A stretch of 44,261 nucleotides of DNA from Colwellia sp. (GTDB taxonomy: Bacteria; Pseudomonadota; Gammaproteobacteria; Enterobacterales; Alteromonadaceae). Shown here piece after piece: positions 12,698-28,474 of the stretch. Under the pieces are notes generated by a model that was not told the origin of the DNA, made no database searches, and was given only the letters and a program-made list of their open reading frames with translations. Each line of letters begins with the position of its first letter. The first letter of the stretch is position 1. The stretch lies in assembly GCA_013215655.1 (NCBI GenBank), contig JABSOX010000047.1, positions 1 through 44,261 of the forward strand. Direction: 5' to 3'. Made by a program: the position numbers and the translations under genes.

Positions 12698-14818
12698 TTA
12701 GTGACCTAACAATACTCGCATAATATCCCCTTGTGCTTGGGCTCTATAAGTAAATATGGCTTTGGAGCCATCTATGTTAAAGTCGGTTACCGAAGATTTG
12801 TCCGGTAAATTCATCAAGAATTTACCGGAATGTTCACCATCAATATTTTCTAAGCTATATTGTTGTAATTCTCTGGTCGATCCATCTTTTTGTAGAGCGA
12901 AAATTGATTGCCCAACAACCTTTAATTGCCCCGGAATTAAAGACTCTAAACCCATTATTGAATTATTAAGTAACTTTGTATCTTCATCAATAAGGCTTTT
13001 ATTAACTAACCCACCAAGCTCATAATCAATTAAAACGAGGCTTTTACTATCGGTATTTTCCTCAGCAAAAAGGCCTGCTCTTTTTTGTATTAATGTAGGT
13101 TTTAAGGAATCCCAATCATACCGATAAATATTTACGTCTCCTCGGTGTTCACTGATATATAGACTTTTATCATTGGCACTCCAAGCTAAAGGGTATTTCA
13201 TATTTGGAATTTTTGTTTCATTAATTATCTCACCTGTTTCAACTGAAATAATAGCTAAGGTTAACCCTTCTTTTTCATAGACGACGGCCAAGTACTCTTC
13301 ATTATGAGACAATATGGGTTTCTGAATAAAGGATGCTTGTAGGTCGCTAATCTTGAGTACGTTTTTGGACTCAACGTCATATAGCCACAATTCATAATAG
13401 CCCGTGCGATTAGAGACAAAAAATATTGAGTTATTATCTTTTGAAAAAATCCCTGAATATTCATTTGCATCACTATTTAATTTTGGAAGCTCATCAAACG
13501 TTTTAGACTTAGTATCAGCAATCATTTGATTCGTCGAAGCTTTATAGGTGGAATAATATAGCTGTTCTTGCTTGATAATTGAACGAACAATTCGTTCTCC
13601 ACTTGAACTTGCTAACACACTTTTAATAGAGTGATCACTGATATTGAGCTGCCAAATACCTTTAGTTGCTGATAATACACCTGATATCAGCAAATGTTCT
13701 GAATCAAGTAATGCAATGTGCTCTACCCAAGCAAATTCTTTTGAGATTGTAGTATATTTGTTGCTGGTAAGATCTAAAGAAACGATTTGTTTTACTTTAT
13801 CGTCGTTATTAAAAAAATATAGACGTTGACCATCCAATGAATATACGACATTACGAATATCGCTAGGTAGCTTAAGAATTGAATCATGCAAATATTCTAC
13901 TTTATTATTGCTAATATTTAATGATTTAAGTTCGTATAATTTATTATGTTTATAGTTGTCGTATTCAGTAAAAATGACTTCTGAAAGTTCGTTTGATTTG
14001 ATGACTAAATTAAAAATACCATTAGTTGATTCATAATGAATTTCAATATCATTATTCATGTTCTGGCTAATAATTTGGTATTGAGTTGCTTTTTTTCGGA
14101 TATAAATAAGAGTTTGTTCGTTTAACCACAAAGGCGAATATTCAAGCCATTCATCATTAGTTATTTGTTGAGACTGACTATTTCCCAAGGTTTTCAAGTA
14201 AAGATCTGTCCCTTGTTTACCGGTACTTACATAAACCATCTGGTTATGGTTTTTATGAAAACTAAAATCGCCTTCAACACCATTAGTTTGCGTTACAGGT
14301 AATATATTCTTGATAGTTAATAGGTTCATACCTTTTGATGGAAACCCCGTATTTGCATACCAAGTAGTTAGAAACGTTAATAGTACAATGCTAAACAATA
14401 ACGATATGGTTTTTAGACTACTTTTTGGTTTATTTTTGAGTACATCTAAATCTACATCGGTAGCAAGGTTACTACTTTCATTAGATTCGATAAACTTTAC
14501 TTCAGGGATAAACCTATAGCCTTTTTTAGGAATAGTTTCGATATATTTAGGTTTTTTTGCGTCATCACCCAAAGCATTTCGTAAACCATAAACAAGCTGC
14601 GATATGACTTCGTCGCCAACCACTACGTTTGGCCATAACTCTTCAAGAATTTCGGCTCGGGTAATTACCTCTCTACCACGAGTTGCAAATAACACAAGTA
14701 AATACATAACTTTAGGTTCAAGACGTTTTTCCCGAGAATTTTTTATTATTAAATTTGCTTGTGGAACAACATCAACCCCTAGAAAGCTGAAATTATTTTT
14801 TGAAAATTGTTTTATCAC
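12698..14818 (-). CDS. CadC-like membrane regulator with TolB-like beta-propeller
   Basis: The 706-residue one-component regulator has an N-terminal OmpR/CadC-type winged helix at about 10-110 (RLEPKVMYLLVLFATRGREV, then YIETIPKKGYRF). One transmembrane helix lies at about 135-152. The long periplasmic part has WD40/PD40-like repeats of the TolB type (for example FFVSNRTGYYELWLYD and AWSANDKSLYISEHRGD). Such proteins sense periplasmic signals and act on DNA directly. The start is a GTG at 14816-14818; no ATG precedes the DNA-binding domain. It is divergent from the SnoaL-like lipoprotein and upstream of the amidohydrolase. A direct repeat at 14914-14940 in the shared promoter region is a candidate binding site. 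Confidence 0.9.
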   Translation of the reverse strand: MIKQFSKNNFSFLGVDVVPQANLIIKNSREKRLEPKVMYLLVLFATRGREVITRAEILEELWPNVVVGDEVISQLVYGLRNALGDDAKKPKYIETIPKKGYRFIPEVKFIESNESSNLATDVDLDVLKNKPKSSLKTISLLFSIVLLTFLTTWYANTGFPSKGMNLLTIKNILPVTQTNGVEGDFSFHKNHNQMVYVSTGKQGTDLYLKTLGNSQSQQITNDEWLEYSPLWLNEQTLIYIRKKATQYQIISQNMNNDIEIHYESTNGIFNLVIKSNELSEVIFTEYDNYKHNKLYELKSLNISNNKVEYLHDSILKLPSDIRNVVYSLDGQRLYFFNNDDKVKQIVSLDLTSNKYTTISKEFAWVEHIALLDSEHLLISGVLSATKGIWQLNISDHSIKSVLASSSGERIVRSIIKQEQLYYSTYKASTNQMIADTKSKTFDELPKLNSDANEYSGIFSKDNNSIFFVSNRTGYYELWLYDVESKNVLKISDLQASFIQKPILSHNEEYLAVVYEKEGLTLAIISVETGEIINETKIPNMKYPLAWSANDKSLYISEHRGDVNIYRYDWDSLKPTLIQKRAGLFAEENTDSKSLVLIDYELGGLVNKSLIDEDTKLLNNSIMGLESLIPGQLKVVGQSIFALQKDGSTRELQQYSLENIDGEHSGKFLMNLPDKSSVTDFNIDGSKAIFTYRAQAQGDIMRVLLGH

Positions 14819-16116: not shown

Positions 16117-17160
16117 TCACTTTTTAATTCGATTAAAATTTCTTATTTCATTATCAATAACATTTAGTAAACTTTTTTCACCATGACTATCTTGAGTGAT
16201 CTCCCATATCATCACCCCTGCACCATGCTGAAGTGCTAGTTTAGTTTTAACTGCAATAGTGATTGTACCGTTATACGTTATGTAATTACATTTAATACAG
16301 GCCGTGCCAACAGAATCATTTCTTATGTCATCATCAGCAAACTCAGTCACTATATCTTTGTAAGAATAGTTACTCGCATAACGACCAAAGCCATAACCGT
16401 AAAATGGTAATCCCAAAACCAATTTATCTTTTGTTAAACCACGTTTTTTCCATATTTCAATATCTTCGATGGCTTGCTGATAAGTGGAATGTTCAACTTC
16501 GCTTGTTCCCCAACTTGGTCCTATCGCGTCATAGGACATGATATTAACAAAATCAAAATACCTTAATGATGAGCTAGGAATCATTCCTCCTTCATAAGAT
16601 GCCGTTGCTGCTGTTAATAATTTATGTCGATTTTGAAATTCACTTGATAGAGCCTGAATGAAAGGAATATAGTTTCCGGCATTATCAATACGAGTCAGTA
16701 AACTGCCTTCAAGATCTATATCCAGACCATCAAGCTGCAAGTCATCAACTAACTTAAGTAAATTATCAACTAACTTGATACGGTTTTTTGGTGTCAATAA
16801 TGTTAACCAATCTCCCGAACACCCTGGCAGTAAAGCGCCAGCAACTGACATTAAAACTTTAACACCCGCCTGATGAGCTTTTGATATTACAGTTTCTAAT
16901 TCACTTCGTGAAACACGGTCACCTTTGTCATTAAATATACATGTCATGGTATCGTTTAACATTAAGTCGCCATTTTTATCGGGGTTAAGAAAGGCGATAT
17001 TAAGATGTGTAAGTTTATCTAAATCAATGTCATCAATATTATTTATCAATCCCTTATAACTAGGTAAATAACCTATTACTTTAGTTTGAGCAAAAACATT
17101 TTGATGATAACTAAATATGATGATCAACAATAAATAAAATTTTACGGACGAACGATGCAT
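16117..17160 (-). CDS. Secreted GH18 glycoside hydrolase (chitinase-like)
   Basis: The 347-residue protein has a signal peptide ending at VFA (residue 24) and a single GH18 barrel. The catalytic DGxDxDxE motif is complete: D144, G145, D147, D149 and E151 in LDGLDIDLE. The substrate-strand motif reads SVAGA near 105, a variant of SxGG. C-terminal GVMIWEITQDS closes the barrel as in GH18 chitinases. It lacks a chitin-binding module, so it may act on soluble oligomers in the periplasm. It could also be an endo-beta-N-acetylglucosaminidase. It is the last gene of the locus, 105 bases after the second halogenase. Confidence 0.88.
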   Translation of the reverse strand: MHRSSVKFYLLLIIIFSYHQNVFAQTKVIGYLPSYKGLINNIDDIDLDKLTHLNIAFLNPDKNGDLMLNDTMTCIFNDKGDRVSRSELETVISKAHQAGVKVLMSVAGALLPGCSGDWLTLLTPKNRIKLVDNLLKLVDDLQLDGLDIDLEGSLLTRIDNAGNYIPFIQALSSEFQNRHKLLTAATASYEGGMIPSSSLRYFDFVNIMSYDAIGPSWGTSEVEHSTYQQAIEDIEIWKKRGLTKDKLVLGLPFYGYGFGRYASNYSYKDIVTEFADDDIRNDSVGTACIKCNYITYNGTITIAVKTKLALQHGAGVMIWEITQDSHGEKSLLNVIDNEIRNFNRIKK

Positions 17161-17265: not shown

Positions 17266-18771
17266 TCACAGTGTCAGAAGTTCTCTGTGGTTTTTAAAGT
17301 TTAATCCACACCGTCTAATAAAATCACTTAACCCATCGACTTCCTGTTGATGAGCAGAATAATCAATAGACTGATCCATGTTTTGTTTCGGCAAGACAAC
17401 ATATCCAGCAAGTAAACATGCCCATGATTTGGGTTTATAGCTACCCGTCAACTTGTATTTATACATATCACCAGCGAAGTCCTGACTGTTGTTCCAAAGG
17501 GTTAAAATTTTGTTTAAATTATCTGAAATATTGTTATTAGCCGCATTGTTTCGCCAATATTCGCTATCGTTACGTTGATTCACTTTGTAGTGACAGACAA
17601 TATAGTCTCTGATGCCATCAAATTTTGAATTAATATCGTTGTTAAAGGCATCTTCAAATTTGTTTGTACCCTTACTTTCCACAAAGCACTGCATAAATTG
17701 TGAAATGGTATTAAATGAAAGTCCTAGAGCAGTTGCCTCTAAAGGTTCAATAAATCCTTGAGATAAGCCAACGGCAAGACAGTTTTTGTGCCAGTGTTTT
17801 TCAATACGTCCCACTTTCATTTTCAAATGTCTTGCTTCAACATCACTATCCAACAAACCTAAATGCTGCCTAAGTTCAGTTTCAGCCTGATTTAAATCTA
17901 TATAGTCACGGCTATAAACATAGCCATTACCAAAACGATTTCTTAGTGGGATCTGCCAAGCCCAACCGTTAGATAGCGCAGTGGCTTTAGTTTCTACAGG
18001 TAATATTTGTGATAGTTCACTTGGTATTACGACTGCCGAATCATTAAATAAATTATCTTTAAAACTCTTATAGTTAACCTTTAATGTTTTTTTCATAAGT
18101 AAGGAGTTGAACCCCGAACAATCAATGAAAAAATCAGCCTCTAACAGGGTGCCATCCTTAAGTTTTACCGCACTTAAGTCACCATCATTTTTAATTAAAG
18201 CATCATCCACATTGCCATAAATTCTTTTCACTCCAAGGTTTTCTGCCTTTTCTGCTAAAAATTGTCCTAAGCGGGCTGAATCGAAGTGATATCCGTAAGC
18301 AACGCCAAAAGGGAAAGACTCAGCAGGCAATGGACCCAAATTGTTTCTTGATAAATAAGACTCTAAAAAGTAGTTATCTGGATGTGCATTAACGTTATAA
18401 CCTTGCATTCGAGCTTGAATATTCTTATAAAAAAGAGGAACAGTGAATATATCGTCTGTTTGCGCGGCGAAGGGATGAAAATAAGACTCAAACCCCGCAT
18501 TCGTTGACCATTTATCAAAGGTAATGCCATTTTTATAAGTCGCATTGCAACGTGGCATCCACTGAGAATCAGCGACATCAATAGCATCAAAAAACAATTT
18601 CAAATGTGGAGTACTACCTTCACCCACACCAATAATGCCTATTTCTTTAGACTCAACTAAGCAAATTTCAGTATTTCTCCATTTGCATGCTAATAAATTT
18701 GCAGCCATCCATCCGGCTGTTCCGCCACCAACAATCAATATCTTTTTGGGTGTTCCGTCGTTATTTAACAT
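17266..18771 (-). CDS. Flavin-dependent tryptophan halogenase-family protein (second copy in operon)
   Basis: The 501-residue protein of the PrnA/RebH family has the FAD motif VGGGTAGWMAANLLA at 14-28 and the tunnel lysine K80 in NATYKNGITF, equal to K79 of PrnA. It also has the halogenase signature WxWxIP as GWAWQIP, and the active-site EPLEAT segment. All residues known to be needed for halogenation by FAD plus chloride or bromide are therefore present. Members linked to TonB-dependent receptors are widespread in marine bacteria, but their true substrate is not established, and free tryptophan is doubtful. It lies 66 bases after the JmjC-like gene in the same operon. No flavin reductase is encoded in the window. 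Confidence 0.9.
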   Translation of the reverse strand: MLNNDGTPKKILIVGGGTAGWMAANLLACKWRNTEICLVESKEIGIIGVGEGSTPHLKLFFDAIDVADSQWMPRCNATYKNGITFDKWSTNAGFESYFHPFAAQTDDIFTVPLFYKNIQARMQGYNVNAHPDNYFLESYLSRNNLGPLPAESFPFGVAYGYHFDSARLGQFLAEKAENLGVKRIYGNVDDALIKNDGDLSAVKLKDGTLLEADFFIDCSGFNSLLMKKTLKVNYKSFKDNLFNDSAVVIPSELSQILPVETKATALSNGWAWQIPLRNRFGNGYVYSRDYIDLNQAETELRQHLGLLDSDVEARHLKMKVGRIEKHWHKNCLAVGLSQGFIEPLEATALGLSFNTISQFMQCFVESKGTNKFEDAFNNDINSKFDGIRDYIVCHYKVNQRNDSEYWRNNAANNNISDNLNKILTLWNNSQDFAGDMYKYKLTGSYKPKSWACLLAGYVVLPKQNMDQSIDYSAHQQEVDGLSDFIRRCGLNFKNHRELLTL

Positions 18772-18837: not shown

Positions 18838-19854
18838 CTACTTTTGTAATTTTGTGATGAAAAAATCTTTGATCATTCTGACATCTTCGGCTGATAAATC
18901 GCCAAGTATATGTAGCGGATGTTCTGGAATGTAAGACCTTGGGTCTAAGGCTTGATGAAATAAGTAATGGTCAAACATGCATCGCCACGCATCTCGTTGT
19001 TTTTGGGTTAAATCTCGCATAGCTAACATCGCTATGTTCAAACTATCAATGGCACTGGGTGATACTGCATTTGGCGCTGAAGAACCATTCCACCAGTAAT
19101 TCATTAATGCATTCACTTTGTCTAAAGATTCAACATGATGCCACCACAGCATAGGAATAAAAATGGCGTCACCAGGCGCTAACTCAACGCTGTAAGCCTC
19201 AGCCAATGCATGTTTAAACAGTGGATAACGTTCAAAATCTGGTTTATTAATATCGACTAAACTCGTCGGTGCACCTGCTGGCGTAAAGTTGAGTGAACCT
19301 GGGTATAAGTGACACGTTTGCTCAGGCGGGAAAAGTATAAAGCGTCGACGGCCCGCCACAACACAAGCCACATTATCAGAGCCATCATAATGTGTATTAA
19401 CTATTCCCTCATTGCCAATCCATAAGCGTGGCTCTACCTCGGGAAAAAAATCTGAACGATTTTCATTAGCCAAGTCCGGTAAAATCTCGCTAGTGAGTGT
19501 GCTTTGCATAGAAATAGCCGGGTAAACATCTCTATCAATCAGCTCTAAAAGGCGACCTAAAAACAGATCTAAGCGTTCTTCACCACTCAAGTAGTTTATA
19601 TCGGTCAACTCCTCATTGTAATAAAAGCGCTTGTTCGCAGCAGGAGGAGCAACAACCATTGTCGTTTTTTTACCGGTATAAAATTGACTTAGATAAGCGA
19701 CAAAATCACTAGGCGATTTCTTGGCAGACACAACAAATGGCCAGTTTTTAGCATATCCACGTATCACTATTGGCTTTTGACTAGGTACAATCTCCTCAAA
19801 AAATTGTTGAGCATTCATTGCTGAATATTCTGGAAGTGTTTTGTATACCGTCAT
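18838..19854 (-). CDS. JmjC-like cupin (Cupin_8), likely Fe(II)/2-oxoglutarate oxygenase
   Basis: The 338-residue protein of the Cupin_8/JmjC group has iron-ligand candidates H155 and D157 in NTHYDGSDN and H239 in MLWWHHVES, the HxD...H facial triad of factor-inhibiting-HIF-like hydroxylases. PIVIRGYAKNWP near 28-39 is the usual N-terminal landmark. The start is the ATG at 19854, whose ATGA overlaps the stop of the upstream halogenase (4-base overlap, translational coupling). A TTG at 19875 is less likely. Sandwiched between two halogenase genes, it probably modifies the same substrate or protein. The hydroxylation target is unknown. Confidence 0.88.
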   Translation of the reverse strand: MTVYKTLPEYSAMNAQQFFEEIVPSQKPIVIRGYAKNWPFVVSAKKSPSDFVAYLSQFYTGKKTTMVVAPPAANKRFYYNEELTDINYLSGEERLDLFLGRLLELIDRDVYPAISMQSTLTSEILPDLANENRSDFFPEVEPRLWIGNEGIVNTHYDGSDNVACVVAGRRRFILFPPEQTCHLYPGSLNFTPAGAPTSLVDINKPDFERYPLFKHALAEAYSVELAPGDAIFIPMLWWHHVESLDKVNALMNYWWNGSSAPNAVSPSAIDSLNIAMLAMRDLTQKQRDAWRCMFDHYLFHQALDPRSYIPEHPLHILGDLSAEDVRMIKDFFITKLQK

Positions 19855-21362
19855 AGCTTTATTTGCACCGGGCAATGAGTTTGAATATATTCATGGTGAT
19901 TGGGCATTTTTAGCACGGTGGCACGAATATCTTCAATATTTTTGGTTAATGTATTTGCTAAGTTTTGACTATGAAAGCCAGCGACCAAGGGATGATGCTT
20001 TCGTGGGCGTATTTTCATCCCCTCTAAAATTGAGCACCAACTATCACAGGTAAAGAATTGCCCGGGGATATGCTCTATCTGTCCTCTTTCTCGAAACACA
20101 CGTATTTTTTCAGCCAATGATTCAGGCACTGGCATCGTTTGGCACCATCGCCAAAAATCACTATCATCACGACCCGAAGTGCAATAATGTAAAATAATAA
20201 AATCGCGAATTTCTTCGTAATCCGTATCAATTTTTTGATTAAATATTTGTTCAGTATTAGCGTCAAAATCATTATCAGGGAAATGTTTTATAAAATGCAC
20301 TAAGGTTTTATAAACTAAATGAATAGCGGTAGACTCTAAGGGCTCTAAAAACCCACTGGCAAGTCCTAGCGCTAAACAGTTGTTATGCCAAATCTTTTTT
20401 CGTTTACCGGTTACAAACGGGATAATTCTGGGTTCATTAAGCATTTTGCCACGAATACTGTTAACCAAAGTATCGAGTGCTTTGTCGTCACTACAAAACT
20501 GGCTAGAAAAAACATAACCGTTACCAGTTCGGTGTTGCAAGGGTATCTTCCAAGACCAGCCGGCCTCTTGAGCAGTTGCTATGGTATATGGCACGGGATT
20601 ATTTACCTGTTCAGTTTGTACTGTAACGGCGCGATTACAGGGTAAAAAATGCGACCAATCCTCAAAACCTACCTTTAAAGATTTTTCTATCAGAAGCCCG
20701 GTAAAACCAGTACAGTCGATGAAAAAATCACTGCTGACAGTTGTACCGTTGTCTAACTCTAGGTTATGTATAAACTCATTATCATCAAGATTAACTTTTT
20801 TTACTGTCGCCTCTACTCTGGTTACTCCTCGCTTGTGGCAAAGCTCTCGACAATAACGAGCAACTTTAATCGCGTCTAAGTGGAGGGCATGAGCATAACT
20901 TGAAAACACCCAGTTTTGAGACTGCTGTGGAGGCAACATAAAACGCTCGTTTTCAGCCATAATGGCGTTTGGGGAATAATCCAGCCAACGTGTTGTCTGC
21001 CCGTCCGCAAGAGACTTTAGCCAAGCCTGATAAAAATCAAAACCATTGATATCCTTTCCAACTCGGCCAAATGGATGAAAATAACTTTCTCCTGCTGTTA
21101 GCCAATCGTCAAAGCGAATACCCAATTTAAAGCTGGCAGACGTTGCTTGAATAAATTCTTTGAGATCGATCTGGCAGGCTTGGATAAAATCCATGATTGA
21201 CGGTACTGTAGATTCACCCACACCAATGGTTTCAATATCGGGAGATTCAATAACAGTAATCTTAATATTACTACCCCTTAAAGAAGTTGATAGTAATGTC
21301 GCGGCCATCCAACCAGCGGTTCCGCCACCCACAATACAAATGGAGTTTAAAGAGTTTTGCAT
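19851..21362 (-). CDS. Flavin-dependent tryptophan halogenase-family protein (first copy in operon)
   Basis: The 503-residue protein has the FAD motif VGGGTAGWMAATLLS at 11-25, ETIGVGES near 44-51, the catalytic lysine K79 in SASFKLGIRFDDW, WxWxIP as GWSWKIP and the EPLEST active-site segment. It is a paralogue of the second halogenase three genes along, but clearly diverged. It follows the TonB-dependent receptor by 186 bases, with a terminator-like hairpin between, and its stop overlaps the start of the JmjC-like cupin. The residue set predicts an active halogenase. The acceptor is not known. A flavin reductase would have to come from elsewhere in the genome. Confidence 0.9.
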   Translation of the reverse strand: MQNSLNSICIVGGGTAGWMAATLLSTSLRGSNIKITVIESPDIETIGVGESTVPSIMDFIQACQIDLKEFIQATSASFKLGIRFDDWLTAGESYFHPFGRVGKDINGFDFYQAWLKSLADGQTTRWLDYSPNAIMAENERFMLPPQQSQNWVFSSYAHALHLDAIKVARYCRELCHKRGVTRVEATVKKVNLDDNEFIHNLELDNGTTVSSDFFIDCTGFTGLLIEKSLKVGFEDWSHFLPCNRAVTVQTEQVNNPVPYTIATAQEAGWSWKIPLQHRTGNGYVFSSQFCSDDKALDTLVNSIRGKMLNEPRIIPFVTGKRKKIWHNNCLALGLASGFLEPLESTAIHLVYKTLVHFIKHFPDNDFDANTEQIFNQKIDTDYEEIRDFIILHYCTSGRDDSDFWRWCQTMPVPESLAEKIRVFRERGQIEHIPGQFFTCDSWCSILEGMKIRPRKHHPLVAGFHSQNLANTLTKNIEDIRATVLKMPNHHEYIQTHCPVQIKL

Positions 21363-21548: not shown

Positions 21549-24500
21549 TTAGAAAACAGCGCTAATATTCAACGAATAACGACGGTCTGATGTAAAGGTA
21601 AACGCATCGGTTAATGTCCCTTGCTGATCTTGTTGGTATTGAGTTTGTGTATCCGTACCAAGCACATTAATTATTTGTAAACCAACTTTAACATTTTCAT
21701 TAATGTTGTAAGAGAAACTTGCATCCATCATACCTTGATCCTTTGAGTATGCAGGAACAAACTCTTCAGACTCACGTAAAGTTAAAAGATATGCTGAACG
21801 CCAAGTATACGCCAAACGGATGGAAATATCGTACTTCTCATACATGCCAATAATGTTGAAATTTTGGTCAGAATAACCCTGTAACGACAAGCCGGTAAAC
21901 TGACGGAAAGAATTGCGATTGTCAGTGATCGGCACTCCTGCACCGTTGGTTGAAAGGATTTTAGTAGGATTAGTATTTGGATCTTCCAAACCGTCTTGGT
22001 CAATATAAGTATAGTTAAACTGTAGACCTAAACCACTCCATATTCCCGGCAACATATCGTAAAACTGGGAATACGCTACCTCGATACCACGAATAGTACC
22101 TGAGCCGGTGTTAGCTGGCCCATAGGCTGATACCGGATAGGTATTACCTGCTACTTCAGTCTCAATTGAGAATTGTTTATTTCGAATGATGTTAGACAAT
22201 TTTTTGTGAAACAAGCCAACAGTTACTGAACCGGCATCTGCAAAATACCACTCTGTTGTTAAGTCTAAATTAATAGATTCTTCTGGCTCTAAGAAAGCGT
22301 TACGTGCGTTAGCACTGATTTCTATATCTCTAAGAGCAACAGTAGGATTAGTGGTTTCATCCTTACCTTCAGACGGATCCAAAAGAACTTCTTGATAGTC
22401 CAAGCTAATGTTCATTTTGTTAGCTGAATCAACAAGACTTGGATAATAAAGGCCTTTAGAAGCGCCGAACCTCACTATTAGGTCATCATCCAGAATAAAA
22501 CTAAGGTTTAAACTAGGTAATACAGTAGTGTAATCTGTACCATCTATGGTGCTAGAGAAGCTTTCACCTGAAGCCAAAGCATAAATACTAGGGTAATCAT
22601 TTTGCATAACTTGATGAAGTGACGACTCAGGATCGGTACCGCGCCTAGACGTAGCAGGTGTATTGATACCACCCGTTGATTGCAGTTGATAATTAACATA
22701 ACGTAAACCAATGTTACCTTTAACAATTATATCAGACTGACCAAGGTCAAAGTCAAAGTCACCACGAACATAAACTTCAGTACGTTCTGTGCTACTTGAA
22801 CTAATATGACGCGGAGCAAAATGACTGTAAACACGATCATCTAAGTCAGCATATGGTAGCGCACAACCGCCGCTGCCATCCATTGCATTGCCCTCTGCAC
22901 TCCAAGTGCCGCAGCCTTCACGCAGGGTTTGTTCATAGTTCTCTGCAAGATCCATACGAGGAAACAAAAAACTGTTGTTAGCACCAATTAAAGTATCCCC
23001 ATTATAGTGGTCAGCAAAGCTAACGCGGTCGTAAAGCTCAGGAGTAACTTGCGGTGAAGCGTTGTAAGAGGCTTGTGCGTTCCAAGGAGTACCTAAGGCC
23101 TGCCAACCTTCATAGTCCGTATCACGAACTGTTAACTTTTTATCAGAATAATATAACCCTGCTTTTATCGCGGTGAAAGTACCTTCTAATTTGTACTCCA
23201 CGTCCAACTTAAAACTGTCAGATTTTGCTTCATTGTGCTCTTCTTGTTGCATACCGCTAGCTAAACGTAAAATGGGATCCGTGTCAGGATCAACGTTTGG
23301 AGGAGTAGACGTATTTGAATTCAAATATTCGAGTGTTGGGTTAGAACCTCTTAAATCTAAGAAGAATGGTGCATGTTCATCGGTTTGATTACCATTAATT
23401 CGAGATGTAAGTGAGTTGTTGTGAACAATTTGTTCAGAATCAACATGTTGATAATCTACTGCAATAGTTAGCAGATCTGTCGGTTTAAAAACTATATTCA
23501 ATGAGGTATCGTCAACCGTACTTTCGTTGAAGTTGTAACGAGAACGAAACTGAAGTGGTAGATTTGGATTATTTGCACGACCGACACCTGAAGTAAGATA
23601 GCCGTTAGCATCCACTGTTAAAGGATAATCTTGGTCATTTTCATTGTGTCCATCGAACCACTGAATTCCATTCGGCGCATACGACAGAAAACCACGGTCA
23701 CCAGAAGCAATAACGTTTTCTCGCCATACTAAAGACGCTTTAGAACTGATATGCTCTATCGTAGCGGTAATTCTTTCATCACTACTCTGCCACTGTAAGC
23801 TGGCAGTGAGACCTTGACGCTTACGATCGTTTTCTGCGCTCGTCATTGCATAGCTAGCCGGTGCATACCAAGTCGCACCTTCAGGCTGGCCTTCGAGTTC
23901 TTCAGCTTCATACTGGGGTGTATAAGCGGCAGCATCCTCAGCTGAATACTGAACAGTATCTGCAAAATTATCACCACAAGCCCGCCAATCTGCGGCACCC
24001 GGAATACAAGGATTAGAATATTGGCCTGCAAGAACGCCTGGACTCGGTGTTCCCCACGCATCGTACGAGAAAGTATCTGCAGGACCACGACTGTGAAAAT
24101 TTCCTAAACCAAAACCATCGCCACGCGTTTTAAATTCAGACTGAGACGCTGCAATCAATACACCAAACTTACCAGCATCAGTATCCCAACTATCAGAAAA
24201 AAGTGCACTGAATGACGGAGTGGTTTCTTCACGATAATCACCATGACTTGCCTCTGCGCTAATCGCAAATACCTGTTTGTCTGAATCAAAAGCTTTTCGA
24301 GTAACTAAGTTCACTGTACCTGCGATACCACCAGAAATGCGATCAGCTGTTTGGTTTTTATAAACTTCCACTGCGCTTAATAACTCAGCGGGAAAGTCCT
24401 CATAACTTAGTCCACCGTATGGGTTTGCGCTAAATGAATCTCGCCCATTAATTTCGCTGCGCACGCGGTCCAAACCGCGTACTAAAACCCCTGTACCTTC

Positions 24501-24830
24501 ATCGGCAAAGTGTTTTGGGTCACTAGAGGAAGCAAAACGCTCAATAGTTACGCCAGGTAAACGCTGAAGTGCTTCAGTAACAGATGCATCAGGCAACGAT
24601 CCAATATCTGACGCTGTAATCGCATCCAATATAGTGTCGGCATGTCGTTTCAAACTCTGCGCACTTTCGATGCTGCTGCGCATACCGCGTACTTCAATGA
24701 CTTCAATAGACTCTTCGCTAATTGTCTTTTCAGCTACAGCTACTGCTTCTTGTGCCATTACTGAAGCAGAACAACAAATCGCTGCAGATATTGCTAGCAC
24801 TAGATTTTTTTTCTGAAATTTAATTGACAT
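21549..24830 (-). CDS. TonB-dependent outer-membrane receptor (Caulobacter-type)
   Basis: The 1093-residue outer-membrane transporter has a signal peptide at 1-26 (to SVMA). A plug domain follows, opened by EVIEVRGMRSSIESAQSLKR with DASVTEALQRLPGVTIER. The long beta-barrel ends in the terminal aromatic SLNISAVF. Length and the RSSIESAQ box match the TIGR01782-type family of large carbohydrate receptors. ATG 24830 is chosen because GAGGG stands six bases upstream and the signal peptide starts there; the frame is open further up to 24878. It heads an operon with halogenases, a JmjC-like cupin and a GH18 enzyme. The cargo is probably an oligosaccharide such as a chitin product (inference). A LacI-type palindrome lies 111 bases upstream. 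Confidence 0.94.
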   Translation of the reverse strand: MSIKFQKKNLVLAISAAICCSASVMAQEAVAVAEKTISEESIEVIEVRGMRSSIESAQSLKRHADTILDAITASDIGSLPDASVTEALQRLPGVTIERFASSSDPKHFADEGTGVLVRGLDRVRSEINGRDSFSANPYGGLSYEDFPAELLSAVEVYKNQTADRISGGIAGTVNLVTRKAFDSDKQVFAISAEASHGDYREETTPSFSALFSDSWDTDAGKFGVLIAASQSEFKTRGDGFGLGNFHSRGPADTFSYDAWGTPSPGVLAGQYSNPCIPGAADWRACGDNFADTVQYSAEDAAAYTPQYEAEELEGQPEGATWYAPASYAMTSAENDRKRQGLTASLQWQSSDERITATIEHISSKASLVWRENVIASGDRGFLSYAPNGIQWFDGHNENDQDYPLTVDANGYLTSGVGRANNPNLPLQFRSRYNFNESTVDDTSLNIVFKPTDLLTIAVDYQHVDSEQIVHNNSLTSRINGNQTDEHAPFFLDLRGSNPTLEYLNSNTSTPPNVDPDTDPILRLASGMQQEEHNEAKSDSFKLDVEYKLEGTFTAIKAGLYYSDKKLTVRDTDYEGWQALGTPWNAQASYNASPQVTPELYDRVSFADHYNGDTLIGANNSFLFPRMDLAENYEQTLREGCGTWSAEGNAMDGSGGCALPYADLDDRVYSHFAPRHISSSSTERTEVYVRGDFDFDLGQSDIIVKGNIGLRYVNYQLQSTGGINTPATSRRGTDPESSLHQVMQNDYPSIYALASGESFSSTIDGTDYTTVLPSLNLSFILDDDLIVRFGASKGLYYPSLVDSANKMNISLDYQEVLLDPSEGKDETTNPTVALRDIEISANARNAFLEPEESINLDLTTEWYFADAGSVTVGLFHKKLSNIIRNKQFSIETEVAGNTYPVSAYGPANTGSGTIRGIEVAYSQFYDMLPGIWSGLGLQFNYTYIDQDGLEDPNTNPTKILSTNGAGVPITDNRNSFRQFTGLSLQGYSDQNFNIIGMYEKYDISIRLAYTWRSAYLLTLRESEEFVPAYSKDQGMMDASFSYNINENVKVGLQIINVLGTDTQTQYQQDQQGTLTDAFTFTSDRRYSLNISAVF

Positions 24831-24940
24831 GTTTACCCTCTGTATTTTTTTGAAGCCTTTTACTGTTGGCATAACCATAGTTTTGGCTTTCTATTAATGT
24901 TAATTCGTTGTTTCAATATTCTTAAGAACTTCCCTTCGCC

Positions 24941-24958
24941 TTTGACAGCGCTGTCAAA
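24941..24958. promoter_or_regulatory. LacI-family-type operator upstream of the TonB receptor
   Basis: TTTGACAGCGCTGTCAAA is an 18-base perfect palindrome with a central CG, the usual form of operators for LacI-family sugar regulators in gammaproteobacteria. It lies 111 bases before the receptor start. No LacI-family gene is in the window, so the regulator would be encoded elsewhere. Confidence 0.7.
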
Positions 24959-25639
24959 AAAAAGATAAAAAAATTTTATAAATTTAATCTTTTGTTAAAA
25001 ATTGAACTAAGCAACTGCTTTTACTGTAATTATGTTTATTAATAAAACGCCATAAGTTACTAATTAACAAATAAACACAAACCCACCGTTACTTTCTAAC
25101 ATTGATATGTATATAAAAGCAACAATTTTTTATATATGTGCTGCTTTTTATTTTAGTGATTACAAAACCTTTAATACAAATAAATGACTAAGTGATTCAA
25201 TGTTTGCTAATAGCAAAATTAATCTATAAATACTCCACCATAAATAGCAAAACTACTGCGGGCGGCAATTCAAAGTATCTTTTTCTCAAACTTGGTAGAT
25301 ATATACCCAAGCAACTTCAAGATGCTAATTTCAGTCAATTCCTGCACCTTTAGGTAGCTTGGGTATAGTAACAACACATCTACACTACCAAGCTAATTGC
25401 ATATGATATAGATACATTTAATTAACATATCACGAAATGAACAAAAACAAATACAATCTATTGATAAATAAGATTAAAATAAACCTTTGTAAATAAACAA
25501 ACTCACGAAGTGAACTTAAACTGAAGAAAAATGATGATATTTGATGATATAAACCGTCTGTTCTACAGGTAAATCAGACCACATAAAGTCAATTACTCCA
25601 CCGTAAGGAGCAAAAAATCAGACTCTATTAACACTAAAT
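24959..25639. other. Long intergenic stretch between the GH18-LytTR sensor and the TonB receptor
   Basis: Very AT-rich with no credible gene. It contains the palindromic repeat at 25302-25367 and two near-identical 12-base direct repeats, CACGAAATGAAC (25431-25442) and CACGAAGTGAAC (25504-25515). GTTACT occurs at 25056-25061 and 25088-25093. Its length suggests a regulated promoter region for the receptor operon. Confidence 0.5.
25302..25367. repeat. Palindromic intergenic repeat, copy 2
   Basis: The outer arms are TATACCCAAGC (25302-25312) and GCTTGGGTATA (25357-25367). The left half continues AACTTCAAGATGC, matching the ACTTGAAGGTGC of the copy at 10414-10459. Similar TATACCC elements are scattered in marine gammaproteobacterial genomes as far as I recall. 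It may act as an mRNA stabiliser or terminator behind the sensor gene. Confidence 0.6.
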
Positions 25640-28474
25640 TTAAAACCACTCAGGATGGATTTCTTTAAGAAGAGGGATATAGGTTCGACTCACTGGCAGC
25701 TTTTCAGCGCCGATCACAATTTTAAATTTCAGCTTAGAAATATGCTCAATATGACTCACCTTTTTAGGATTTACTAAATACGAGCGATGTACTTGAATCA
25801 AGGCAGAATCATCAAAATATAACTTTATTGTTCTCAGTCGCATTGATATATACCTTGGCTCTTTTATAGATTGTACATATATCCCCGTATATCCAGAATC
25901 TGCTTTTAAATACTTAATACGTTCTTTATATTGTGTTAACTCATGTAATTCAGCGAGGGTTGAAGGCTCCTTAACCAATGCTTTTAACGCGTTTTGAATC
26001 ATTTGTGTTTGGCTTATTAATACTTTAATTAATTGCTCATCGTCATAATCTAAAGCTGTTTTGGTAAATATTTCAATACTAAGTTCTTCAGTTTTAATTA
26101 TTTTTTTATGATTTTCTACTAAAGATGCATCCCCTAATTTAGTGATCAGTTGCTCATTTTGATAAATATTGATCTTAGAGTCGTTTTTAAGGTACTCAGC
26201 AAAAAAACGGCAGGCTTGCTCTAAGCCCTTAAAAATATCTTTGTTCGGTGTAGATGACAAATTAAACAAAGTAATATTATCAATAATACTGTTTGCATTA
26301 TTCTTATGTTCAAGGGTTTCAATAGAGGTATTTTTTTCTTCAATGCTACTGATTTCAGGAGATATATTTGCTAATGAACGTGATCCCTGTTCTTGATATG
26401 TAAAAAAAGATACCGTTGTCGGCTTAAATAAACCATGACTATATTTACTTGTTGGTATCTGCACTTGAAAAATATCAGTATCGCCCGATAGCGTTTTTAA
26501 TTGTATACCAAGTATATTTGCTTGGGCGAACAGCGGTTTAAGTTGTATATGATTAAGTACAATTTGATGGTTTTGTGTTAAATAACGGACAATCAAGTCA
26601 ACATAAGACTCATTCTCTATGATCTCAACCTCTAAATCACTTTTTTCCTGAGCACTATCACAACAAAAAATACACAAATTAAGTAAAAACTGTTGCACCT
26701 GACTATGGTCAATAAACAATTGACATGGGGTTGCATGGGACCACTTTATTCGACACTGTCGATTAATAAATATAAAGCGGTCTATGGTTACCAACAAGTC
26801 ATCTAAACTTACCACTTGTGCAACTTGTTGGCCCAAAGAACGATTCAGTTTAGTTTCAGTTAATACATGACTAATGGGCTTTAATAACTGAGAAGAGAGC
26901 ATCATCATTTGATCAATACTAGCGCTATCAAGTAAATTTTTCTTGAGTAACTCAGGTGATAACATCAATAAATTCAATAATGGCCATTCTAAATTTTGTA
27001 AATTCTTTTGCAGTAATAAAAGCTGTCTGCGTTCTTCTACATTAACCCTGTTACGTTTATTCATCAGATACAATGTACTGATAAAAATAATAATTAAAAT
27101 GATAATGAATTGAAAAACGGGTATTAATATATTTTTATGTTCTTGCCATAAAACTATACTCTTGTAATACATCCCTTGAAAAAAGTGATAGTGGAAAAAT
27201 GTACTGACTAAAACGAAATCACCATTATGAAGCTGACGTATCGCAACGCCTGCTAAATTTTGCTGTTTCGCATAGGCTACTTTATTAGCAACTGAACGAT
27301 CACTTTCAAAAGCAATAAAATGCCCACCAAATCGTTCGGGATTAAAGAGGTAACTGCTTTTACTAAAATCATCCCAATATTGTTGATAAGTACCTAAGGC
27401 TAAAATATAAGATAAACTTTTTCTTGTATATAAACCGGTAGCACCCGCAACTTCACTATCCCAACTGCCCCAACTTAATTTTTTTGCTGATTGATGCAAA
27501 CCTTGATTATCGGCATTTACCCCTTCCCAACCAATAGCATAAGAGGGTAAAGCAATAACAATTTTTTCATTATCAATTGAAAATTCATTTAACCTGGCAA
27601 TTAAACCACTGATAGACTCATCATCACTTTGTAAAAATAATGGTGATAAATGACTGGTTTTTGAACTTTCATCTCCAGCTATTTGACTAACATCTAAAAT
27701 AACTAAATCAACACTTTCACTTAACAAGCTTGTTTGCCAATCATCCTCCAAAGAATACGGAGCTATAGAAACTTGTAACCAGTATGCCTTTGATAAAAAA
27801 GATAACTGTTGTTTAATTTCTGCTAATAACAAGGCTAAATTTACGGGGTCAGTTTCTTGATTTGCAATTAAATTTTCTTTTAGCGATTGAGGTTTATGGA
27901 TTGGAAACTGCCAGTCAATTTCAATACCATCAAATTGATATTTCAGCATAAAATCAATTGCTGATTTAGCAATGATTTCACGACCTTTTGTTGTTGATGA
28001 TACCGAAGAAAAATACTCTGAACGTCCCCAACCACCAATACTGATAATGTTTGCCAATTGGGGATGTTGATGTTTTATTTTTATTAATTGTCCAAAACTA
28101 CCTAATATTACCTCTTGCTCAAGATTAGTATTTGGATATAAATGTTCTATATCGGCAAAAGCGTCACCCACTTCTATTTCACCCTTTTTATTTAGATAGG
28201 CACTTTGATAGACAAGATGAGTCATTAATTGTAATGGTAAATCAAGGATATGAACGTTGGGGCTATAAATAGACCATTGAGAGTAGTAGCCCATTACTAT
28301 AGGAGGCTGAGTGGTAGCACTTAGGTTTACTTGTTCATCCTTAGCATGAATATTTGAAGAATAAAAAATAACCAGAAAAAAAATAAAGAAGATAAATTTA
28401 ACAATAGGAACTGTAAATAACCTTTGCCTACTTTCCTCCATAACACTATAGTTATTATTGTTTATATGATTCAT
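25640..28474 (-). CDS. Transmembrane GH18-pseudoenzyme / LytTR one-component regulator
   Basis: The 944-residue chimera has a hydrophobic segment at about 25-43, a periplasmic GH18 domain at about 58-415 and a second transmembrane helix at about 450-471. A histidine-kinase-like core at about 480-680, a GAF-like stretch at about 735-832 and a LytTR DNA-binding domain at about 848-944 (with VHRSYLVNPKKV) follow. The GH18 barrel keeps SIGGWG (145-150), but its catalytic motif reads DGIEIDWQ (182-189). The second Asp is Glu and the acid Glu is Gln, so hydrolysis is not expected while sugar binding may remain. The kinase core lacks the phospho-accepting His box (LEWPLL replaces it) and has only a remnant N-box (QQFLLNL), so it too looks dead. 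I infer a ligand sensor that controls DNA binding directly, probably for the adjacent receptor operon. ATG 28441 is an alternative start. Confidence 0.88.
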   Translation of the reverse strand: MNHINNNNYSVMEESRQRLFTVPIVKFIFFIFFLVIFYSSNIHAKDEQVNLSATTQPPIVMGYYSQWSIYSPNVHILDLPLQLMTHLVYQSAYLNKKGEIEVGDAFADIEHLYPNTNLEQEVILGSFGQLIKIKHQHPQLANIISIGGWGRSEYFSSVSSTTKGREIIAKSAIDFMLKYQFDGIEIDWQFPIHKPQSLKENLIANQETDPVNLALLLAEIKQQLSFLSKAYWLQVSIAPYSLEDDWQTSLLSESVDLVILDVSQIAGDESSKTSHLSPLFLQSDDESISGLIARLNEFSIDNEKIVIALPSYAIGWEGVNADNQGLHQSAKKLSWGSWDSEVAGATGLYTRKSLSYILALGTYQQYWDDFSKSSYLFNPERFGGHFIAFESDRSVANKVAYAKQQNLAGVAIRQLHNGDFVLVSTFFHYHFFQGMYYKSIVLWQEHKNILIPVFQFIIILIIIFISTLYLMNKRNRVNVEERRQLLLLQKNLQNLEWPLLNLLMLSPELLKKNLLDSASIDQMMMLSSQLLKPISHVLTETKLNRSLGQQVAQVVSLDDLLVTIDRFIFINRQCRIKWSHATPCQLFIDHSQVQQFLLNLCIFCCDSAQEKSDLEVEIIENESYVDLIVRYLTQNHQIVLNHIQLKPLFAQANILGIQLKTLSGDTDIFQVQIPTSKYSHGLFKPTTVSFFTYQEQGSRSLANISPEISSIEEKNTSIETLEHKNNANSIIDNITLFNLSSTPNKDIFKGLEQACRFFAEYLKNDSKINIYQNEQLITKLGDASLVENHKKIIKTEELSIEIFTKTALDYDDEQLIKVLISQTQMIQNALKALVKEPSTLAELHELTQYKERIKYLKADSGYTGIYVQSIKEPRYISMRLRTIKLYFDDSALIQVHRSYLVNPKKVSHIEHISKLKFKIVIGAEKLPVSRTYIPLLKEIHPEWF

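Follow-up and report, generated by a model that had tools for sequence, protein, structure and literature searches.

The polymer chitin is very abundant in the sea, and its sensing by bacteria is known in detail mainly from Vibrio. The Vibrio regulators ChiS and TfoS are described as membrane-embedded, chitin-responsive proteins that bind promoters themselves, with ChiS activated through CBP (PMC11856585). CoxC, presented as prototypic for membrane one-component LytTR regulators, has a membrane sensor fused directly to LytTR and direct repeats before its target; its sensor is an MHYT gas sensor, the protein is a repressor, and its three repeats lie 12-13 bp apart (PMC11347149). YpdB, a LytTR regulator of E. 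coli, has a partner kinase and binds a direct repeat of GGCATTTCAT, its sites being 11-13 nucleotides apart (PMC4847170). As for receptors made from glycosidases, tobacco CHRK1 is reported to combine a GH18-type outer domain without the catalytic Glu, a membrane anchor, and an inner signaling domain, here a plant kinase (PMC10573068). The anti-σ factor RsgI6 of Clostridium thermocellum is reported to have a GH10 outer domain of very low activity that serves as a sensor by binding polysaccharide, while its cytosolic part controls transcription (PMC4711584). Both proteins set a precedent for sensors of glycosidase-like build. In Andreprevotia ripae, a GH18 protein with a LytTR domain is named in the legend to Fig. 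1 of one report, with no role proposed there, and 4 of 25 secreted GH18 proteins of this species are given as lacking the Glu (PMC8802321). Passages of a review of transmembrane regulators mention LytTR and not GH18 (PMC10269533). Within the literature searched, which mostly left out subscription journals, a GH18-LytTR regulator is described nowhere; the statement of a preliminary description of the locus studied here, that no such system had been described, was nonetheless too strong given the A. ripae protein (PMC8802321), CHRK1 (PMC10573068), and CoxC (PMC11347149).

The locus lies in a window of 44,261 nucleotides, the whole stretch of Colwellia sp. DNA that was analyzed. We read its sensor-regulator gene, at a probability of roughly 0.7, as encoding a chitin regulator of the one-component type that is anchored in the membrane, works without phosphorylation, and uses a retired chitinase as its receptor. 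Compared to CoxC, the GH18-LytTR sensor has a predicted periplasmic pseudo-GH18 domain, a putative dead-kinase linker, and repeats ~75 bp apart. The domain layout of ChiS differs from it as well. CHRK1 and the GH18-LytTR sensor are in all likelihood independent inventions. The A. ripae protein is probably a member of the same family, since its genus supplies two members, L053 and L110, from the same genome. The gene and its motif codons are as follows.

25640..28474, minus strand: sensor-regulator frame of 944 codons (ORF, Pfam, hydropathy, AlphaFold/Foldseek, alignment), with a signal segment (~19-37), a GH18 pseudo-barrel (59-411), a TM helix (449-467), an eroded kinase core (~480-675), a low-confidence linker (~678-727), a GAF-like part (~726-834), and LytTR (851-938)
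27908..27931, minus strand: DGIEIDWQ codons, residues 182-189 (alignment; coordinates computed from the frame start)

Pfam places Glyco_hydro_18 (PF00704) at residues 59-411 (E value, 7e-52) and LytTR at residues 851-938 (E value, 3.8e-14). No kinase, ATPase, REC, or GAF match was found with the Pfam models at E values up to 1, and by the REC model, at the same limit, the receiver domain of two-component LytTR response regulators is missing. Hydropathy reveals an N-terminal segment at 19-37 and a single helix at 449-467 between GH18 and LytTR, with four Lys or Arg residues in the 15 positions after this helix and two in the 15 before it. Because of the signal-like start and the greater positive charge after the TM helix, the GH18 barrel should be periplasmic and the LytTR domain cytosolic. 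The frame of 944 codons with its GH18, TM, and LytTR layout, and the membrane tether of LytTR, both put forward in the preliminary description, were recovered by ORF, Pfam, and hydropathy analyses; LytTR and a TM sensor share one chain, as in CoxC. AlphaFold gave a mean pLDDT of 70.6 and a pTM of 0.47 for the whole protein. The barrel has a GH18 fold, its best Foldseek match being chitinase A1 (1itx; E value, 1.4e-23). The model of the cytosolic half is weak because its mean pLDDT is 72.2 and its pTM is 0.35; this low-confidence model matches histidine kinase structures and the LytTR structure 3d6w, with TM-scores to many kinase cores mostly of 0.4-0.56. The GAF-like part is a putative assignment drawn only from predicted helices and strands.

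The family has 33 members with the GH18-LytTR layout, found in Colwelliaceae, Motilimonas, Psychromonas, and Chitinibacteraceae. They are the window protein, L004, L008, and 30 matches kept after 20 of their genomes had been searched with the GAF-LytTR part, which returned 33 matches in 19 of the 20. Left out were a contig-end fragment (G769:C70) and two distant LytTR matches of Colwellia (L101 and L102), dropped since by eye they look multi-TM and without the GH18 motif. A scan of named genomes for DGIEIDW or YY[KSN]QW[GAS][IT]Y, which relatives with neither pattern could escape, yielded 34 loci. Nineteen of them were GH18-LytTR, found in Colwellia, Thalassotalea, a Colwelliaceae MAG, Motilimonas, and Psychromonas and in the betaproteobacteria Chitiniphilus, Andreprevotia, Jeongeupia, and Chitinibacter. 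The whole-protein and GAF-LytTR-part searches are independent of the catalytic motif. Of 394 genomes of the order, the former brought up GH18-LytTR proteins in 9, own genome included, and nothing but ordinary GH18 matches in 9 others; the latter found GH18-LytTR proteins in 1 of 369 genomes of a class sample, the own genome only.

What has become of the glycosidase in these proteins? In the window motif DGIEIDWQ, Gln replaces the proton-donor Glu of GH18 and Glu replaces the middle Asp, while SIGGWG is intact, and alignment bore out this earlier reading. The proton-donor Glu is missing in all 33 sensors (Arg in 14, Gln in 11, Asn in 3, Pro in 3, and Ile and Thr in 1 each) and kept in 17/17 ordinary GH18 controls, drawn from sensor neighbors, the own genome, and the whole-protein search of the order and placed in the same alignment. 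The candidate of an active GH18 enzyme was dropped on this absence. A dead GH18 domain had been expected as the rule among homologs, which holds (intact Glu in 0/33). A fixed Glu-to-Gln change holds in part: Gln is found in the 10 Colwelliaceae members and L053, but R, N, P, I, or T elsewhere. All of the 33 but L104, which has Asn, retain the final Asp of the motif (32/33). At the -1 Trp position, which we take to be W403 of ChiB, 12/33 sensors keep the Trp, all of them short or Chitinibacteraceae forms, versus 17/17 controls; it is lost in Colwelliaceae and long Motilimonas forms, in which canonical GlcNAc binding at -1 is therefore doubtful. The catalytic Tyr, Y214 in ChiB (PMC8802321), survives in only 2 of 33 sensors versus 17/17 controls. 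The window protein has Ser263 in place of the catalytic Tyr and Arg413 in place of the -1 Trp, so its cleft is remodeled. The argument that Glu-to-Gln keeps ligand binding does not carry over, because other residues occupy the position elsewhere and both the Tyr and the -1 Trp are gone in the window. Among the 15 other loci of the pattern scan (L057 and L059-L072), 14 keep the Glu and L057, a GH18 protein without LytTR in an Anaerolinea MAG, has Arg.

In a GH18 tree, all 33 sensors fall on one side of a branch with support of 98/96, and the sensor state takes one change in all 200 bootstrap trees (100%), the tree being midpoint rooted and built after omission of 4 of the 17 controls, with long branches and uneven composition flagged. 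The simplest reading of the tree is a single loss of GH18 catalysis in this family.

The genes that follow the sensor in the window are given below.

21549..24878, minus strand: TonB-dependent receptor, which opens the proposed target operon (Pfam, neighbor comparison); by alignment with relatives, its true start is probably 48 bp inside this frame
19851..21362, minus strand: Trp_halogenase-family flavoprotein (Pfam, neighbor comparison)
18838..19875, minus strand: Cupin_8 protein (Pfam, neighbor comparison)
17266..18771, minus strand: second Trp_halogenase-family flavoprotein (Pfam, neighbor comparison)
16117..17160, minus strand: GH18 protein with DGLDIDLE, Tyr-Asp, and Trp intact, last gene of the proposed operon (Pfam, alignment)

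Across the family, a GH18 enzyme or a polysaccharide deacetylase lies downstream on the same strand in 22 of the 33 cases (several genes on in Colwelliaceae), a genetic link to chitin genes that bears out the chitin context proposed earlier; none was found for 7/33, and 4 are partial or cut by the contig. Colwelliaceae have a TonB receptor directly after the sensor in 9/9 cases where the contig reaches (L041 ends first), followed by a Trp_halogenase gene, in some cases also by a cupin and a second Trp_halogenase gene, and then by GH18, which has an intact motif in 8/8 long-enough regions (L042 ends first). Motilimonas shows three arrangements: two GH18 genes downstream of the long form (4/4), a deacetylase relative downstream of the short form (4/4 by homology), and a GH18 gene with CBM5/12 downstream of a third type (L104 and L107). 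The one short-form deacetylase scanned with Pfam had Polysacc_deac_1, ChitinaseA_N, and, below the cut-off, CBM5/12. In Chitinibacteraceae, a deacetylase with CBM5/12 lies downstream of L052, L054, L055, and L110, a protein with ChitinaseA_N only follows L053, and the deacetylase relatives near L058 are on the opposite strand. BLAST against the families in hand detected no GH18 relative adjoining three Psychromonas sensors and no GH18 or deacetylase neighbor of L105, L106, L111, or L112. The expectation that homologs always sit beside TonB receptors thus failed: adjoining receptors were found in Colwelliaceae only, and the neighbors elsewhere are GH18 enzymes, deacetylases, or nothing of the kind.

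These data bear on what the pseudo-GH18 domain would recognize. It might bind a protein (a chitin-loaded binding protein, a receptor, or a chitinase) rather than a sugar, in the way proposed for ChiS and CBP, and both the loss of the -1 Trp and Tyr in the lineage of the window and the activation of ChiS by chitin-bound CBP, likely directly (PMC11856585), speak for it. However, 12/33 sensors retain the -1 Trp, and no one partner gene is common to all sensor neighborhoods. We regard protein binding as somewhat unlikely.

The region before the receptor gene contains two repeats.

25503..25515, minus strand: distal repeat GTTCACTTCGTGA, proposed LytTR site
25430..25442, minus strand: proximal repeat GTTCATTTCGTGA, lying 73 bp away from the distal copy; proposed LytTR site

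The interval 24831-25639 had been named as the place to look for DNA binding, and conserved repeats are indeed present within it. Two GTWCAnTTCRTGA-like copies, 73-76 bp apart, precede the receptor in 9/9 readable Colwelliaceae regions, and the strict core TTSRTGA occurs at both copies in 5/9 (shuffle mean, 0.002). In the window, 10 motif matches with up to two mismatches were found versus 7.8 expected, and the perfect copies are the distal and proximal repeats. In the short Motilimonas regions, TTGGTG sites are spaced at 75-77 bp; three regions hold two such pairs and L036 holds one, and a strict-core pair is present in 2/4. The core, derived from the Colwelliaceae and short Motilimonas regions, also occurs on the sense strand in 5 of 7 regions of other groups (five Chitinibacteraceae and two third-type Motilimonas), versus a shuffle mean of 0.31 regions, none of 1,000 shuffles reaching five, and one match on the opposite strand; a looser pattern had been run earlier on the same regions, so this test was not wholly blind, and two of the five positive regions are from one genus. 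YpdB, whose repeat is close to some of the sensor-linked repeats, binds GGCATTTCAT (PMC4847170), and CATTTCAT is present in the sites of L027, L040, and L046. From these likenesses we infer that the repeats are candidate LytTR sites of the sensor.

The repeats may instead belong to another regulator, with the sensor acting elsewhere. Their spacing is unusual, the gap between LytTR sites commonly being 10-13 bp (PMC11347149, PMC4847170), as in the direct repeats of CoxC, versus 73-76 bp in 9/9 Colwelliaceae regions. In addition, the core was found in 0/4 long Motilimonas regions, with no consistent repeat there despite the two GH18 genes downstream, and perfect single sites are no more common in the own genome than matches to a reversed control pattern (6 versus 8). 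Against this, two bacterial groups have the core downstream of the sensor gene, and nowhere in the own genome except next to the sensor do two perfect sites lie close together. Another owner of the repeats is unlikely.

A third element lies closer to the receptor.

24943..24956, no strand assigned: palindrome TGACAGCGCTGTCA, proposed NagR (LacI-type) operator, its owner being inferred

The exact palindrome is present in 7 of 9 Colwelliaceae receptor regions, and TGACARCGYTGTCA occurs at nine places in the own genome versus none for the reversed control. Four copies lie ~55-145 bp before genes of one cluster that includes nagA, nagB-II, and nagK (each over its NCBIfam cut-off), a TonB receptor, a Trp_halogenase protein, and a LacI-family gene. 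The others are one before the receptor of the window, one inside a GH18 frame as called (C121:18501, not counted as a promoter site), and three elsewhere (C64:3880, C81:70644, and C152:18407, not counted as nag linked). A LacI-family NagR is reported to control GlcNAc genes and, in Xanthomonas, TonB receptors (PMC5343134). The palindrome may be a NagR site and would probably add GlcNAc control to the receptor operon.

How would a signal reach the LytTR domain through an eroded kinase? The His of an H-box precedes its Pro by five residues, and the His position was taken accordingly. Gln replaces it in the window protein, which thus has no phospho-acceptor there; across the 16 long forms, the position holds Gln in 13 and Lys, Arg, and His in one each. 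HisKA was weakly detected in two of three homologs scanned, both below the gathering score of 26.9 bits (L008, 26.0; L005, 15.2). A working kinase was dropped, with no Pfam kinase match and Gln at the His position in the window protein. The preliminary description of the core as lacking its H-box applies to the window, where the His is missing, but not to its relative L045, where it is present. Of the four parts, the kinase region is the least identical in 7/8 pairs (the exception is the Psychromonas pair, where GH18 comes out slightly lower), and going by protein length and visual inspection, the short Motilimonas forms (711-743 aa) lack most of it. Since the His is mostly lost, identity is low, and the region is largely missing in short forms, the eroded core fits a linker rather than a phosphotransfer device. 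The low-confidence stretch at ~678-727 would leave room for regulated proteolysis, releasing the LytTR part as a soluble regulator. Nothing else specific favors such release, and CoxC is reported to bind DNA from membrane fractions while membrane bound (PMC11347149), which makes proteolysis decidedly unlikely.

An enzyme-regulator whose GH18 part still acts on sugar by altered catalysis is very improbable. The last motif Asp is nearly always kept and the fold matches chitinases, but the proton donor is gone throughout, with six different replacements, and the catalytic Tyr is nearly always lost. The sequences also point to purifying selection on the sensor. The dN/dS is 0.03-0.20 for GH18 in the 5/8 pairs with usable dS, 0.01-0.05 for LytTR in 8/8 pairs, and 0.04-0.27 for the kinase core in 4/8 pairs, above GH18 in each of those four, values that are rough because dS is high, near or past saturation in most pairs. 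A pseudogene was dropped on the low dN/dS, and a decaying fusion without function, to which the one copy broken by stops (L010/L051) might point, is hardly credible given the low dN/dS of the GH18 and LytTR parts where computable and the operon conserved in Colwelliaceae.

We therefore return to a one-component chitin regulator, a reading that builds on the architecture, the loss of catalytic residues, the purifying selection, the neighbors, and the conserved DNA elements found in the sequences and adds to them a ligand, a linker mechanism, and activation rather than repression as proposals. The periplasmic pseudo-GH18 domain would recognize a product of chitin breakdown, or a protein that carries such a product, and the signal would pass via the single TM helix and the helical linker of the dead kinase. 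This linker, probably by dimerizing, would alter the hold of paired LytTR domains on DNA. The paired domains would activate the next operon by binding the TTSRTGA-type repeats in front of it; in the window, this would be the operon of the TonB receptor, the flavoproteins, the cupin protein, and the GH18 protein with an intact motif; NagR would be a second gate on it. A broader claim, to which we give even odds, is that of a family spanning two proteobacterial groups that lost catalysis once and converges on CHRK1. In it, a dead kinase would serve as a mechanical linker, largely dropped in the short forms, and the operator would pair two single LytTR sites at a distance of about seven helical turns, together making a phosphorylation-free circuit from chitin to DNA.

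If true, this would be another route of chitin sensing, with the sensor made from the enzyme itself and one protein both sensing chitin and switching on the genes for its use. It would also be a clear example of a pseudoenzyme recruited as a receptor alongside a pseudokinase recruited as a linker. The analysis names a DNA element and candidate chitin-responsive modules in cultured Thalassotalea, Motilimonas, and Chitiniphilus.

Further features in the Colwellia genome lie beyond the sensor gene itself:

L122:62-17870 (contig C64), nag cluster with nagA, nagB-II, nagK, a TonB receptor, a Trp_halogenase protein and a LacI gene
G000:C121:9000-24000 (L126), GH18 and LPMO cluster, including LPMO_10 with GbpA_2 and CBM5/12
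Window 12698-14818, CadC-type winged helix and PD40 beta-propeller repeats in one fused protein

Four copies of the palindrome, the proposed NagR operator, are found within the nag cluster, and another lies inside a GH18 frame of the GH18/LPMO cluster. The pairing of a TonB receptor with an adjoining Trp_halogenase gene is seen in the window and again in the nag cluster.

In four Motilimonas genomes, the short sensor is neighbored by a deacetylase gene, followed by a periplasmic-binding-protein-like gene (L035:12581-13681 and equivalents in L036 to L038), which belongs to the Peripla_BP_4 family in L035 and which we presume to be LuxP-like. The sensor copy of Psychromonas sp. Urea-02u-13 (L051:9905-12685; L010) is interrupted mid-frame by stops. 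Outside the sensor family, a GH18 protein without LytTR from an Anaerolinea MAG (L057:3441-4811) has Arg at the Glu position, and two Colwellia LytTR proteins (L108:7206-8915 and L109:7516-9177), apparently multi-TM, are distantly related to the LytTR part of the sensor only.

The CadC-type/PD40 fusion is possibly a second membrane regulator in the same window.
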